Assembly: GCA_016937995.1 (NCBI GenBank)
Contig: JAFGVM010000075.1
Span: 1-24,426 of the forward strand
Direction of reading: 5' to 3'
Source of the DNA: Candidatus Delongbacteria bacterium
Lineage (GTDB): Bacteria; UBA4055
Length of the DNA: 24,426 nucleotides
Part shown: positions 11,734-21,425 of the stretch, in pieces
Layout: every line of letters starts with the position of its first letter
Position numbering within the stretch: position 1 is the first letter of the stretch
Program-made: the position numbers and the translations under genes
The notes under the pieces: model-generated
Told to the model about the DNA's origin: nothing
Database searches by the model: none
What the model saw: the letters and a program-made list of their open reading frames with translations, nothing else

Positions 11734-12396
11734 ATGAAATTAAAAACTACGGTAGTGTTATTACCCGATTTAAAGATCAAGCGCTCTGAGCTGCATAAAG
11801 TAAGAGGATTTTTCTCTTCGAAATATAATGAAAATAATCTGATACATAATCACGATGGCGATAAGTTCATCCACAGATATCCTGCAGTTCAATTTAAAAC
11901 AATAGATAATATTTTGTATATTTATTCTTTCTCTTCAGATACTGAAGATGTTTTTAAGGATATCTTTCTAACAGACTATGAACTTGATATAGAAGGGAAG
12001 AAGTATAGTATTAATGAAAAGCAGATCGAAGTCAAAGATCTTGAACTGAATGATAGTGAAGATTATTTCAAATATGAATTTTATTCTCATTGGATAGCCT
12101 TAAATCAAAAGAACTTTGAAGAATACATGAAATTAAAATTTCAGGATGAAAAAGACGCAAAATTAAAATCAATTATAATCCAGAATATAATCTCAGTCTG
12201 TAAATTTGCAGGATATACGATACAAAATAAGCTTGAAGTTAAAGAATTGAATTTAAAACCCGTAATGACTAATTTAAAAGGAATGGAAATTCTTGCATTC
12301 AAAGGTGATTTTGAGATTAATTTTATATTACCGGATTACATAGGACTAGGCAAAAGTGTATCAAGAGGATTTGGGAATGTCAGGAGAGTGAAATGA
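11734..12396 (+). CDS. cas6: CRISPR-associated endoribonuclease Cas6
   Basis: Cas6 cuts the pre-crRNA within each repeat to give crRNAs with an 8-nt 5' handle. This protein is 220 residues, short but within the family range. The call rests on the glycine-rich C-terminal loop GLGKSVSRGFGNVRRV (204-219), a hallmark of Cas6 RAMP proteins, and on an N-terminal TTVVLLPDLKI beta strand followed by the HKVRGFF helix. Several histidines near the N-terminus (HNHDGDKFIHRYP, about 38-50) are candidate catalytic residues. AGAGGT precedes the ATG. It is the first gene of the cas operon, and its TGA overlaps the next start as ATGA, coupling it to an unusual accessory gene. Confidence 0.88.
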   Translation: MKLKTTVVLLPDLKIKRSELHKVRGFFSSKYNENNLIHNHDGDKFIHRYPAVQFKTIDNILYIYSFSSDTEDVFKDIFLTDYELDIEGKKYSINEKQIEVKDLELNDSEDYFKYEFYSHWIALNQKNFEEYMKLKFQDEKDAKLKSIIIQNIISVCKFAGYTIQNKLEVKELNLKPVMTNLKGMEILAFKGDFEINFILPDYIGLGKSVSRGFGNVRRVK

Positions 12397-14057
12397 ATGA
12401 AAACGAACTAAAAAATTATTTAATTCAGAATTATCCTGTCGAAGATGAGACCTGTGAATGGAAAGAGTTTTATTCTTTGAAGCACAGCACTTCCGGTGAC
12501 GAAGGGAAAGATATTGTTTCTTATATATCCGCAATCTCAAACATGAACGGCGGGCAATTAGTTGTAGGCGTAGAAGATCAAACTATGAATATTAGTGGTA
12601 TTAAGGATTTTAACAAATTCAATAAAATCAGGATTAAGCTTAAAATACTTCTTGATTGCACAAATTTAAGTTCGGAAAAATTTGAAATTGAAGAATTTAT
12701 TACAGATGATACTCATAAAATCGTTTGGATTTTTCATATTCCAAAGCACACATACAGACTTCCTGTTTATGCGCACAGAAAAGCTTGGCAAAGAATTGGT
12801 GACAGTCTTGTTGAAATGACCCGCGTTAGATTAAATACAATTCTTTCCGAAGTCAGACCATCAGAGGATTGGTCAGCTGAAATAATAAATGAAGCTTCTT
12901 TAGAAGATCTTGACCCTCAGGCAATTGAAAAGGCAAGAATTGAATTTAAAAAGAGAAATTCAAAGTATAGAGATGAAGTTGACAAATGGGATGATAAAAA
13001 ATTTCTTAACAAGGCTAAAATTACAAAGAAAGGGAAAATTACCCGTACCGCTATGATTTTACTGGGAAAAGATGAGGAGGAGCATTTCCTTGGTTCATGT
13101 GTAAAAATAAGGTGGAATCTCAAAACTATTGATAATCAGGATAAAGACTTTGAAATATTCTCAATCCCCTTTCTGCTAACCGTGGATGATGTATGCAAAA
13201 AGATCAGAAATTTAAAATATCGTTATTTACGAAAAGGTTCGATGTTCCCTGACGAATTTTTGAAATACGAACCGTTTTCTATCAGGGAAAGCATTCACAA
13301 CGCTTTAGCGCATCAGGATTATTCTTACGGTGCCAGAATAAATGTAGTTGAAATTGAAGACGATCATTTGATTTTTTCAAATTACGGATCGTTTCTACCA
13401 AAGTCTGTTGAAGATGTGGTTTTAAAAGATTCTCCCGAAGAATTATACAGAAATCCGTTCCTTGTCGAAGCCATGAAAAACCTTGATATGATTGAAACTC
13501 AGGGTGGCGGTCTAAGGAAAATATTCAATTTCCAAAAACAACGATTTTTCCCGATGCCAGATTTTGATTTCTCAGATAACAAGGTAAAGGTAATTATTAC
13601 CGGAAAAGTAATTGACGATGAATTTGCGGATATTCTTATTCAAAATCCAAATATTTCAATGAGTGATATTCTTTTACTGGACAAAGTTCAAAAGAAAAAA
13701 TATATGTCGGACGATGAATTTAAATACCTGAAAAAAATGAAATATGTTGAGGGTCGAAAACCGAATATTTACATTTCAAAGGATGTACTTGAGCCAGTCA
13801 AAGATGAAACGATGAAAGCTGATTACATTAGAAATAAAGGTTTCGATGATACTTACTGCAAAGATTTAATTCTTAATTACATTAAAGAATGGGGGAGCAT
13901 CACCAGAAATCAGGCTGAAAAATTGTTATGGGATAAACTATCGGATGTTCTGTCTGATGAATCAAAGAAGAATAAAGTACAAAATTTATTCCAAAAACTT
14001 AAGAGTGAGAATCGAATATCATTGGGTAAAAGAAAAAAATGGGAATTAAAAAAGTAA
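12393..14057 (+). CDS. Schlafen/AlbA_2 domain protein with C-terminal HATPase-like and winged-helix regions
   Basis: The protein has 554 residues. An N-terminal AlbA_2 (Schlafen-type) domain spans about 18-130, seen as CEWKEF (21-26), a SYISAISNMNGGQLVVGVED run (43-62) and an SGI motif. The middle (about 270-400) resembles the HATPase_c_4 module of COG2865-type regulators: RESIHNALAHQDYS with His302-Asn303, DDHLIFSNYGSF, and ETQGGGLRKIF with Gly371-373. The last 70 residues (from CKDLILNYIKEWGSITRNQAEKLL) look like a winged helix. This family includes putative ATP-dependent transcriptional regulators, and some Schlafen relatives act on nucleic acids or in defence. The start overlaps cas6 by ATGA, so it is expressed with the cas genes. 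A 42-bp repeat block starts 3 nt past its stop. Its role in CRISPR is unknown; autoregulator of the operon is my leading guess. Confidence 0.82.
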   Translation: MNENELKNYLIQNYPVEDETCEWKEFYSLKHSTSGDEGKDIVSYISAISNMNGGQLVVGVEDQTMNISGIKDFNKFNKIRIKLKILLDCTNLSSEKFEIEEFITDDTHKIVWIFHIPKHTYRLPVYAHRKAWQRIGDSLVEMTRVRLNTILSEVRPSEDWSAEIINEASLEDLDPQAIEKARIEFKKRNSKYRDEVDKWDDKKFLNKAKITKKGKITRTAMILLGKDEEEHFLGSCVKIRWNLKTIDNQDKDFEIFSIPFLLTVDDVCKKIRNLKYRYLRKGSMFPDEFLKYEPFSIRESIHNALAHQDYSYGARINVVEIEDDHLIFSNYGSFLPKSVEDVVLKDSPEELYRNPFLVEAMKNLDMIETQGGGLRKIFNFQKQRFFPMPDFDFSDNKVKVIITGKVIDDEFADILIQNPNISMSDILLLDKVQKKKYMSDDEFKYLKKMKYVEGRKPNIYISKDVLEPVKDETMKADYIRNKGFDDTYCKDLILNYIKEWGSITRNQAEKLLWDKLSDVLSDESKKNKVQNLFQKLKSENRISLGKRKKWELKK

Positions 14058-14059
14058 TT

Positions 14060-14213
14060 ATGAGAACTTATACGAAGTCATGCGTAATTTTATACGAACT
14101 TACGAGAACTTATACGAAGTCATGCGTAATTTTATACGAACTTATGAGAACTTATACGAAGTCATGCGTAATTTTATACGAACTTATGAGAACTTATACG
14201 AAGTCATGCGTAA
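14060..14213. repeat. 42-bp tandem repeat, about 3.7 copies, iteron-like
   Basis: Units start at 14060, 14102, 14144 and 14186; the last stops matching at about 14213. Each begins A(T/C)GAGAACTTATACGAAG. Copies differ by a single base (C at 14103), so the expansion is recent or held by selection. Within each unit TTATACGAA occurs twice. The seven occurrences start at 14068, 14090, 14110, 14132, 14152, 14174 and 14194, spaced alternately 22 and 20 bp, about two helical turns, all in the same orientation. This is the geometry of a multi-site protein-binding array. Because 42 is divisible by 3, two forward frames stay open through it; I do not treat either as a stand-alone gene. Confidence 0.9.
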
Positions 14214-14513
14214 AAATGTGCGAGCGGTTTGGAATGCGACCGAACATAAGTCGGTTACAAATTTGAACCAGTAGAAATAAAAAAGGAAAAGTGAAATGGA
14301 TAAACAACTCTTCGTTTCGTATTATCTTGTTTCATTACCGGACATTGAAGAACTTAAAGAATTTATGCGTAAAGAAATGACCATGAAGGAAGCTGATGTG
14401 ACAAGCAGGAAGAGGATAAAAGGAAAAATAGGAAGTATTGGGATTTCAACCCGTGAAATTTGACAGGTTAAGAATATTAAGATGGTAAATAGAAAAGAAA
14501 AAAGAGGTAATCT
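14214..14513 (+). other. Spacer between repeat block and cas8b
   Basis: This 300-bp stretch separates the repeat block from cas8b. It holds a short hairpin ACCGA/TCGGT (14239-14243, 14251-14255; 7-nt loop, no T-run) and one small ORF listed separately. A perfect TTGACA at 14460-14465 has no good -10 partner at normal spacing. I see no other gene or mobile element. Confidence 0.5.
14296..14463 (+). CDS. Small hypothetical protein, 55 aa
   Basis: An ATG at 14296 opens a 55-codon frame ending in TGA at 14461-14463. AAAAGGAAAAG at 14281-14291 provides a reasonable ribosome binding site about 8 nt upstream. The product starts MDKQLFVSYYLVSLPDIEEL, continues with a charged helical EFMRKEM segment, then a very basic SRKRIKGKIG stretch. 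It has no Cys, signal peptide or recognised domain. It could be a genuine small CRISPR-locus protein, the stub of a decayed gene, or chance. cas8b starts 50 nt downstream. No function is assigned. Confidence 0.4.
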   Translation: MDKQLFVSYYLVSLPDIEELKEFMRKEMTMKEADVTSRKRIKGKIGSIGISTREI

Positions 14514-16604
14514 ATGATAGAAAAAATATACCAAATAGGTAAATGTTTATCAGGCAACCAAGAACCAATTGATAAATACGTGCAAAAAGTGAAAATAAAA
14601 AAAAATACAAAGATCGACGAAAGCTTTGAATCAGAAACGAAATTATTTATTGCAAAAGTTGTTTACAACATTCCTGAATTAAGAATTGAATTTGAGCTAC
14701 AAAAAGAATATGAACTCGGTGATGAAAAAAGATATAATTTTCTTGATACACCTAGAGCTCGAAGTAGAAAATTTCATTTGGTATGGTTAAGTAAAGATTT
14801 TAAAAATCTTGTTAAATATCCATTTAAAGAAATAAAGACTCAGATTAGTTTAGAACGAGATAAAATAAAGGATTTTGACGAGAAGTTTGCATATCTATGC
14901 AAGATGATAAACATGGTTATTGAAAGTAAAATTGACGGTAACAAAATTTATACACCAGATAATGTCTTAGAATCAGAAAAATTTAAGGTTTACTTAAGAA
15001 AAAAAACTGGAAATTTGTCTGATAATATTGAAGATCAAATTAATGAACTTCACACTGATTTGACCGAAGAGTACATTAAGAAATTTTTACTCGAACTTAA
15101 ACCAAAACAAGACATTGCTTTTTATATCCCAGTTATTAAATATCTTGACGAAACAGAAACACTAAAAGAAGCGTATATAACAGAACATAGAGAGTATCGC
15201 AATTTTTATTTGCTAACCAAAAATGATACGAGTGTTACTTCAGCTAATATTGACAACAGCACAGTAACAGAATATTGTTATCTATGTAAACAAAAAGCTG
15301 AATCCGTAAAAGTTCCAACTTTTGAAAGAGGAGCAATAACTCAGATCTTTGTAACAACTACCATAAATTCAGCTAGGAATATATCAGATAATAAATACAA
15401 AGAAAATTTCTCCATCTGTAATGATTGCTTAGAAGCAATTAAAGTTGGTGAAAAATATATCCGTGAGCATTATAGATTTAAGTTTGCAGAGTTAAATACT
15501 TATCTCATACCATATTTTTACGATATAAAAGATGATTTTGATTATCAATTAGTATCAAATGAAATAAAAAAAGATACAGAACTTTTATTTCAAGGGGCGG
15601 AAGTAAAGAATTTTATAAACTCAATTAAAGACGAGCTCGATGATACAAGTGATAAATTCCAATTTTGGAAAAACAATATATTTTCTCTTACATTTATTAG
15701 CTACCAATCTGATGGTAATAGCTTTAAAATCACAAATATTATTGAAGAGGTTTCCAAATCACGATTTGAGATTATCATTAAAGCTTTTGCTGAGGAATTT
15801 GCAAAATTAACAGATTATGTACGCAAATTTTCGATTGAAAGTATATACAGTTTAATTCCTGTAAAAAATAACAGCAAAGCTAAAAATGAAGCAATGGAAT
15901 TTTTCAACGCTTTATTTAAACTCAATATTATTGAGAGGAAAAACATTATAAAGCATTTTTGTCAATCCATGCATTACTTATTCCATTTAAAACCTGACAA
16001 ATTTTATACAAGCAGTGACATTTATAAAAATCTAAAAAAAGGTGAAATATTTGATTTTACAATCAAGGATTATGTCTTTAGATATTTGATTATAATCAAT
16101 GCGCTAGAAAAACTTAATATTTTAAAACAGGAGGTAAAATCTATGTCGGAAGATCTGTTAAAATGCGAAGAAGAAGCTTTCATTAATACGCAAAAACTAG
16201 GTGAACAGGAGAGGTCACTTTTTTATCTTGGCTTGATTTTAAGAAAGATTGCGGTAAAACAACAGAGTAAAGGGCACTACTCTGCTCCTATTCTACAAAA
16301 AATCCAATTCCAGGGCATGAACAGCAAAGATATTCAAAGGCTATATCTTGATATCATGGAGAAGGTAAAGCAGTACGAAATTGAGAAATGGACAAATGAC
16401 CGTGAAGAACTTCATCGTTATATGAAAGGATTTCACAACTATTTTGATCGTAACCTGAAAAATTGGCAGCTAAGCGAGGAGGAGAATGTATTTTATCTTT
16501 TAAGCGGATACGCATATTTAGTTGCCGATAGTACCATTAATAAAGATGAGGCACTTGAAAACAAAACTAACGAATTAGAAGGAGATAATAAAAATGGAAA
16601 CTAA
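14514..16604 (+). CDS. cas8b: Type I-B Cascade large subunit Cas8b (Csh1/TM1802-like)
   Basis: Cas8b is the large subunit of the type I-B Cascade, expected to read the PAM and recruit Cas3. It is 696 residues. Two CxxC pairs, Cys255/Cys258 (CYLCKQ) and Cys302/Cys305 (CNDCLE), form the zinc site typical of Cas8b. The N-terminus MIEKIYQIGKCL and the overall size agree with the Csh1 group, and the position directly before cas7 and cas5 is diagnostic. AGAGGT lies 5-6 nt before the ATG. The stop lies 11 nt inside cas7. An internal AGGAGGT plus in-frame ATG at codon 544 suggests separate translation of the C-terminal domain, listed as its own entry. The composition is poorer in GATC than the housekeeping genes. 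Confidence 0.9.
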   Translation: MIEKIYQIGKCLSGNQEPIDKYVQKVKIKKNTKIDESFESETKLFIAKVVYNIPELRIEFELQKEYELGDEKRYNFLDTPRARSRKFHLVWLSKDFKNLVKYPFKEIKTQISLERDKIKDFDEKFAYLCKMINMVIESKIDGNKIYTPDNVLESEKFKVYLRKKTGNLSDNIEDQINELHTDLTEEYIKKFLLELKPKQDIAFYIPVIKYLDETETLKEAYITEHREYRNFYLLTKNDTSVTSANIDNSTVTEYCYLCKQKAESVKVPTFERGAITQIFVTTTINSARNISDNKYKENFSICNDCLEAIKVGEKYIREHYRFKFAELNTYLIPYFYDIKDDFDYQLVSNEIKKDTELLFQGAEVKNFINSIKDELDDTSDKFQFWKNNIFSLTFISYQSDGNSFKITNIIEEVSKSRFEIIIKAFAEEFAKLTDYVRKFSIESIYSLIPVKNNSKAKNEAMEFFNALFKLNIIERKNIIKHFCQSMHYLFHLKPDKFYTSSDIYKNLKKGEIFDFTIKDYVFRYLIIINALEKLNILKQEVKSMSEDLLKCEEEAFINTQKLGEQERSLFYLGLILRKIAVKQQSKGHYSAPILQKIQFQGMNSKDIQRLYLDIMEKVKQYEIEKWTNDREELHRYMKGFHNYFDRNLKNWQLSEEENVFYLLSGYAYLVADSTINKDEALENKTNELEGDNKNGN
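16143..16604 (+). CDS. cas11b: Cas11b-like small subunit from internal start in cas8b
   Basis: Inside cas8b, AGGAGGT at 16129-16135 is the strongest Shine-Dalgarno I noticed in the window and lies 7 nt before an in-frame ATG at 16143. Translation would give a 153-residue, mostly helical, highly charged protein (MSEDLLKCEEEAFINTQKLG to the Cas8b C-terminus). In type I-B, I-C and I-D systems a small subunit, Cas11, is known to be made from an internal start near the 3' end of the large-subunit gene, and it lines the Cascade belly. Size, position and signal all match that arrangement. There is no separate cas11 gene in the locus. The assignment is inferred from sequence only. Confidence 0.75.
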   Translation: MSEDLLKCEEEAFINTQKLGEQERSLFYLGLILRKIAVKQQSKGHYSAPILQKIQFQGMNSKDIQRLYLDIMEKVKQYEIEKWTNDREELHRYMKGFHNYFDRNLKNWQLSEEENVFYLLSGYAYLVADSTINKDEALENKTNELEGDNKNGN

Positions 16605-20894: not shown

Positions 20895-21425
20895 ATGCAA
20901 ATATCATTAACAAAAAAGGTTCAGGATTATCTGGGAATAAAAACTCTTGAGAATTATGTAGAGCAGGATTCTTTTATGACTGATTGGGGTGTTAATTATT
21001 TTACATTGAACAGGAAGCAAATATTTGTTTTTATGAACAGAAAAACAAAATTTATTGTTATCGTGCCTTTTACGAGCAAGAAAAATCTTATTTATGATTT
21101 TGATGACAGACTTGAACTTGAATTAATTAGAGCCGGTGTGCCTCAAGATAAATTAGATGAAATCTATCTCGGGCTTGATAATATAAGATTTATAAAGAAT
21201 GACAGCAAATCGTTTATAGCTTCACAAGTCCAGATGATAAAAGATATTAAAAGTTATCTTTATAAAGGAATTTTTTGGCATGAAGATATACCTGAAATGG
21301 CTAATACTACTTTAGTTAAATTCCATGACGGGTATGATGATCCGGTTATCAGGCTTTTTGACGAGCTTGATCTGCCTGTTAAACTAATAAAATACGAAGA
21401 ACTCAAAAATCATCCAAGAATATAG
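20895..21425 (+). CDS. DUF6933-like accessory protein between cas3 and cas1
   Basis: This 176-residue protein is not one of the standard Cas proteins. The pattern ISLTKKVQDYLGIK, then WGVNYFTLNRKQIFVFMNRK, then TKFIVIVPFTSKKNLI resembles DUF6933, a poorly characterised family with a W-x-N...R-K...F-x-N-x-x-T core. The central part (ELIRAGVPQDKLDEIYLGLD) and the SQVQMIKDIK helix also fit that layout. It has no signal peptide, membrane segment or Cys. It lies 18 nt after cas3 and 13 nt before cas1, with GGAG upstream of its ATG, so it is part of the cas transcript. Its composition is closer to cas1 than to cas3. A role in CRISPR is suggested only by location. The family call is from memory of the pattern. 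Confidence 0.6.
   Translation: MQISLTKKVQDYLGIKTLENYVEQDSFMTDWGVNYFTLNRKQIFVFMNRKTKFIVIVPFTSKKNLIYDFDDRLELELIRAGVPQDKLDEIYLGLDNIRFIKNDSKSFIASQVQMIKDIKSYLYKGIFWHEDIPEMANTTLVKFHDGYDDPVIRLFDELDLPVKLIKYEELKNHPRI

Follow-up and report, generated by a model that had tools for sequence, protein, structure and literature searches.

A Schlafen-HATPase-winged-helix gene within a type I-B CRISPR operon and the 3' repeat array that changes together with its last winged helix

A 554-aa protein that combines a Schlafen domain, an ATPase domain and winged helices is encoded between cas6 and cas8b of a type I-B CRISPR operon, and its position raises the question of whether it serves the CRISPR machinery or has a function of its own. 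The operon lies on a contig of a Candidatus Delongbacteria bacterium that we analyzed over 24,426 nucleotides (the window); its features described here from cas6 to cas8b are on the forward strand. The gene order is cas6-SLFN-cas8b-cas7-cas5-cas3-DUF6933-cas1-cas2-cas4-CRISPR array. The open reading frame of the Schlafen gene (12393-14057) starts within the end of cas6 (11734-12396; Pfam Cas6b_N and Cas6b_C, PADLOC Cas6), its start overlapping the cas6 stop in an ATGA. About six bases ahead of this start, direct reading reveals a probable Shine-Dalgarno sequence, AGGAGA (12382-12387), still within cas6, which suggests translational coupling. An earlier note had described this gene with its AlbA_2, HATPase and winged-helix parts and its overlap with cas6, and reading frame, Pfam matches and structure model agree that it is real. 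The downstream interference module starts with cas8b (14514-16604), whose product represents a deep lineage with best matches of about 28% identity in 385 other sampled genomes. A reading frame of 55 aa (14296-14463), read from the sequence, lies between the repeat array described below and cas8b. It has a good ribosome-binding site; no convincing relative was found in the fetched loci, and its position would make it part of the insert. The second non-Cas gene of the operon, between cas3 and cas1, encodes a DUF6933 protein (20895-21425) that matches the PADLOC candidate PDC-S63 (E=1e-10).

The domains of the Schlafen protein suggest an enzyme with a sensing or switching part. Pfam assigns residues 17-142 (12441-12818) to SLFN_AlbA_2 (PF04326; E=5e-13, 50.1 bits against a curated cut-off of 25.3). 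The three catalytic acids that characterize a Schlafen RNase are present as E17, E22 and D62 and are kept in 76, 75 and 74 of 77 sequences, respectively. In the alignment, their counterparts in the 5yd0 chain (Slfn13) are E218, E223 and D261, residues that we take, by our own count, to be the known catalytic residues E205, E210 and D248 of Slfn13 plus 13. The HATPase_c_4 domain (residues 319-402, 13347-13598; Pfam, E=4e-12, 46.3 bits against a cut-off of 26) is directly preceded by a conserved N-box-like helix (E299, H302, N303, A306, H307, Q308, D309, Y310), a GHKL-like arrangement; these residues as well as G332 and G373 are shared by 77/77 sequences. In the AlphaFold model of the whole protein (mean pLDDT 85), the predicted order of helices and strands gives a first winged helix at about residues 409-461 (13617-13775) and a second one, variable within the family, at residues 484-554 (13842-14054). 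Searches for similar folds returned Schlafens and the tRNase domain of rSAMD9 for the N-terminal part, histidine-kinase domains with weak scores for the middle part and winged helices for the C-terminal end. Many solved winged helices match the second one with Z of about 8.5-9.9 and an rmsd of mostly 1.6-3 over about 56-78 residues. Judged from sequence and fold, the N-terminal domain is probably an RNase acting on tRNA or other structured RNA, and the ATPase domain in the middle, which resembles that of histidine kinases, is probably a sensor or a switch.

The earlier note had seen in this protein either a regulator of the CRISPR locus or a second defence effector linked to crRNA processing. 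Among 84,980 species genomes searched, at least 551 relatives came to light; the closest 80 were retained together with as much as 10 kb of flanking sequence per side. Screening with the window's own Cas proteins found no cas genes beside these 80. Queries with Cas1, Cas2, Cas3 and Cas7 from other loci likewise found none in 106 homologue stretches, some of which overlap genomes already counted and many of which are shortened by contig ends, so that linkage over longer distances may have escaped. The same screening method readily detects cas genes when applied to other bacteria with type I-B loci. Thirteen such loci were sampled, some of them cut by contig ends and none a close orthologue of the window's locus, and the Schlafen gene was found in 0/13; it thus does not recur as a core component of type I-B would. 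Within the host's family (13 genomes), the window's Cas8b occurs only in this genome, and no orthologous cas locus was found with it. A second Schlafen copy in the same genome (paralogue L002) lies apart from cas genes, and a gene remnant in another genus (11111-11512 of L017, G005:C70), about 92% identical in amino acid sequence over its length, has neither winged helices nor an array and is located outside any cas locus. Together with the homologues that lack cas neighbors, the paralogue and the remnant lead us to conclude that the gene moves on its own. In 27/80 loci the gene starts no more than 20 bp from its upstream neighbor, be it a methyltransferase or another gene; the ATGA overlap with cas6 therefore seems to reflect a tendency of the family and not a partnership with Cas6. 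A partner specific to CRISPR and coupled to Cas6, for which the overlap and the position in the operon could be quoted, is therefore rejected on genomic context and would be a most improbable explanation. Of the two options in the earlier note, a second defence effector, here one with DNA-binding domains, is probable, whereas a special link to crRNA processing or to CRISPR is not supported, as no cas genes were seen beside the homologues and the gene is absent from the 13 other type I-B loci sampled.

The relatives that have recognizable neighbors occupy other defence operons. Among the closest 80 homologues, 26 sit in type I/III restriction-modification (R-M) or BREX operons (19 type I R-M, 4 with type III-like methyltransferases and 3 BREX, with profile support), and the remaining 54 have no query gene nearby. 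In domain order and in its location within a defence operon, be it CRISPR as here or R-M and BREX as in these homologues, the gene fits the Schlafen-HK-wHTH type. Two Rhodobacterales plasmids, one predicted to be conjugative and the other mobilizable, carry the gene directly after a DNA methyltransferase and ahead of a helicase gene in R-M-like operons. Further genes accompany it in single loci: a TIR-like protein (L027), a GajB-like helicase (L042) or a PDC-S14 protein (L048) is encoded directly upstream, as if such accessories were stacked in one slot. A small XRE-like HTH gene follows 3' of the Schlafen gene in several Prevotella-type loci (L037, L038, L081, L088, L094 and L074), and the start of some of these HTH genes is preceded by another array or by isolated copies of the repeat. 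In L042, from a Sulfurimonas MAG, three repeats of ~36 bp with ~30-bp spacers (16316-16485) lie downstream of the BREX operon and resemble a very short CRISPR array.

Tandem repeats of 42 bp directly after the gene, which the earlier note does not describe, prove to be the most informative feature of the locus. The array (14058-14211) is built of direct repeats of ~10.5 bp (TTATACGAAC / TTATGAGAAC / TTATACGAAG / TCATGCGTAATT) in four 42-bp higher-order copies, the first of them partial. Each 42-bp unit comprises about four ~10-bp pieces, and the units are nearly identical to one another. The repeat was not found elsewhere in the genome assembly, and this single place rejects a genome-wide minisatellite. 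A faint match of the array sequence 3' of other family members led us to inspect their 3' flanks. Since motif selection favors repeats, shuffled sequences and control genes were run identically. Repeats right after the stop codon were found in 65/80 flanks compared to 8.5% of shuffles, and the same scoring was positive in 81/659 (12%) control flanks of other genes and in 14/80 upstream flanks. Redundancy was removed by taking a single member from each of 38 winged-helix clusters: 34/38 have at least three helically spaced copies compared to 12/185 controls (p=1e-25). The gaps between repeats measure 10-12, 19-22 or 30-33 bp in 204/220 cases, and of those past the first period 68/83 fall on helical multiples, where one third would be expected. 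Copies on the opposite strand near the arrays are in tenfold excess (22 vs 2.2 expected). Outside the set used to build the score, 10/14 closer relatives show the pattern, with at most 3/60 shuffles equaling them, and so do several distant members. Of the 14, L012, L014 and L015 had already been inspected when the idea arose. The window itself scores only 1 by the strict count (exact 7-mers 9-14 bp apart) because its repeat units are imperfect, and 7 by the chain statistic. Some members, for example L164, have no array.

Array and last winged helix change in step with each other, as one unit. In 11 Bacteroidota proteins the chassis (residues 1-420) is near-constant and the last winged helix differs; repeats are alike (similarity 0.53-0.87) only in the 5 pairs whose winged helices are at least 92% identical, whereas in the remaining 50 pairs repeat similarity is at most 0.20. 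L004 and L005, both from the host's family, are 94% identical in the chassis and 44% in the winged helix, and their arrays differ. The opposite constellation is given by the window gene and the paralogue L002 of its own genome: chassis 39% identical, winged helix 64% identical, arrays related. Between L014 and L015, DNA identity amounts to mostly 82-98% ahead of the winged helix, about 50% across winged helix and array and 80-98% thereafter, and in L083 and L014 remnants of an array of another type lie past the array. These related sequences are not independent, so that the pair counts are to be read as natural experiments to which no formal p-value belongs. Over all homologues, the partial correlation of repeat similarity is modest, 0.17 with the winged helix compared to 0.13 with the rest of the protein. 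Pairs with a constant chassis and a differing winged helix and array are well suited for experiments on specificity. The joint change also bears on the alternative of neutral minisatellites or of recombination sites devoid of a binding function. The near-identical 42-bp units of the window do point to a recent expansion, but the fixed place in 34/38 lineages, the degenerate repeats with helical spacing and the change along with the winged helix make this very unlikely.

What the array does can be narrowed down by its position and its strands. The arrays are always located 3' of the stop codon and often include it. As they are probably transcribed there and their partner is a probable RNase, the repeats could act in the transcript, as a decoy, an antitoxin-like RNA or a target of self-cleavage, much like the repeat RNAs of type III toxin-antitoxin systems. 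However, the gaps are helically quantized, copies on the opposite strand are in excess, and the exchanged domain is a winged helix. In addition, the RNA of the window array has no stable fold and is predicted to fold worse than shuffles (z=+2.2), which rejects a structured RNA antitoxin in the window. Control at the RNA level is therefore rather unlikely in our view. The helical spacing, the opposite-strand copies and the poor fold of the window RNA argue for DNA as the form in which the array is read, a choice that rests on statistics of spacing and strand, and opposite-strand copies could also form RNA hairpins. If the array is read as DNA, the protein might still be a plain transcriptional regulator that sets the downstream half of the operon (cas8b to cas4, or hsdR in R-M) and has no role as RNase. 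Two winged helices are present, and the array separates the Schlafen gene from the effector genes both in the window and in many hsd operons. Yet arrays are equally frequent where the next gene is convergent (17/19), and the three Schlafen acids are nearly invariant, so we hold this explanation to be doubtful. The arrays beside convergent neighbors also reject a role as promoter of the gene that follows. In the fetched loci, the promoters of the operons were free of array clusters, and almost none were seen elsewhere, the one exception lying just upstream of the Schlafen gene's stop codon in L061, at the edge of the excluded zone. Because arrays are equally present beside convergent genes and do not cluster at promoters, control of the protein itself is likelier than control of the next gene.

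On balance we lean towards a mobile accessory, probably a Schlafen RNase, whose last winged helix would recognize as DNA the array behind its own gene and may thereby restrain the RNase. A horizontally mobile defence gene would have settled between cas6 and cas8b, where it exploits the operon for transcription and the cas6 end for translation. Its last winged helix, the proposed reader of the array, would bind the helically phased repeats 3' of its own stop codon as double-stranded DNA, with protomers sitting side by side, one turn apart. More tentatively still, the array-held protein may represent the restrained state, and the RNase may be freed by a phage-linked change that affects the ATPase domain. 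A location 3' of the stop codon is odd for an operator and counts against this model. A stricter version, which we consider possible but improbable, is that a suicidal Schlafen RNase is kept inactive on the array at the end of its own gene, winged helix and array being swapped as a cassette that prevents cross-reaction. Loss or occlusion of the array, e.g. by host DNA breakdown during infection, would then free the enzyme, and the locus would be both a sensor and an addiction module. The presence, across bacteria, of an array of short sites behind the stop codon that varies along with the last DNA-binding domain suggests an unrecognized mode of control of such enzymes.

In comparison with known systems, the N-terminal fold and the three acidic residues are those of the Schlafen RNases SLFN11, 13 and 14, but the window protein is bacterial, has HATPase and winged-helix domains and is an RNase by prediction. 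The closest solved structure, the uncharacterized bacterial protein DIP2311 (PDB 3lmm), matches residues 1-473 with a Z of 24, albeit at ~16% identity and with a large rmsd of 18 A. In type III toxin-antitoxin systems, an RNase gene is preceded by repeats of structured RNA, whereas the Schlafen repeats lie downstream and the window repeat RNA is not stably folded. In type I R-M, the target-recognition domains of HsdS are specificity modules that are swapped on a constant chassis; the exchanged module of the Schlafen family differs in that it brings its own DNA sites along. The regulator BldC provides a precedent for binding, as its winged HTH protomers bind direct repeats head to tail, one helical turn apart (PMC5859096), and by this analogy the last winged helix may bind its array in a comparable manner. 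BldC, however, is a small promoter-binding protein with no Schlafen part and no array at its own 3' end. The nearest relative is a fusion of a Schlafen RNase, a minimal histidine kinase and a wHTH, which the accessible part of a 2026 BREX survey lists among the suicidal effectors that serve as backup, in close linkage to the core loci of BREX and BREX-related systems in at least 1017 taxa (PMC12839542). Domain order and defence-operon setting are the same, and BREX loci occur among the homologues analyzed here. The window gene differs by its place in a type I-B CRISPR operon, and that part of the survey neither mentions 3' arrays or winged-helix exchange nor explains how the fusion is controlled. 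In the open-access literature we found no account of this gene with CRISPR or of its arrays, which are apparently unreported. In conclusion, the gene belongs to a known kind of defence accessory but occupies an unusual position, and its 3' array and cassette-like exchange are apparently unreported; it indicates that Schlafen accessories of this kind can enter CRISPR operons, and the array physically attached to it offers a well-defined control element, amenable to testing, for defence RNases of this widespread class.
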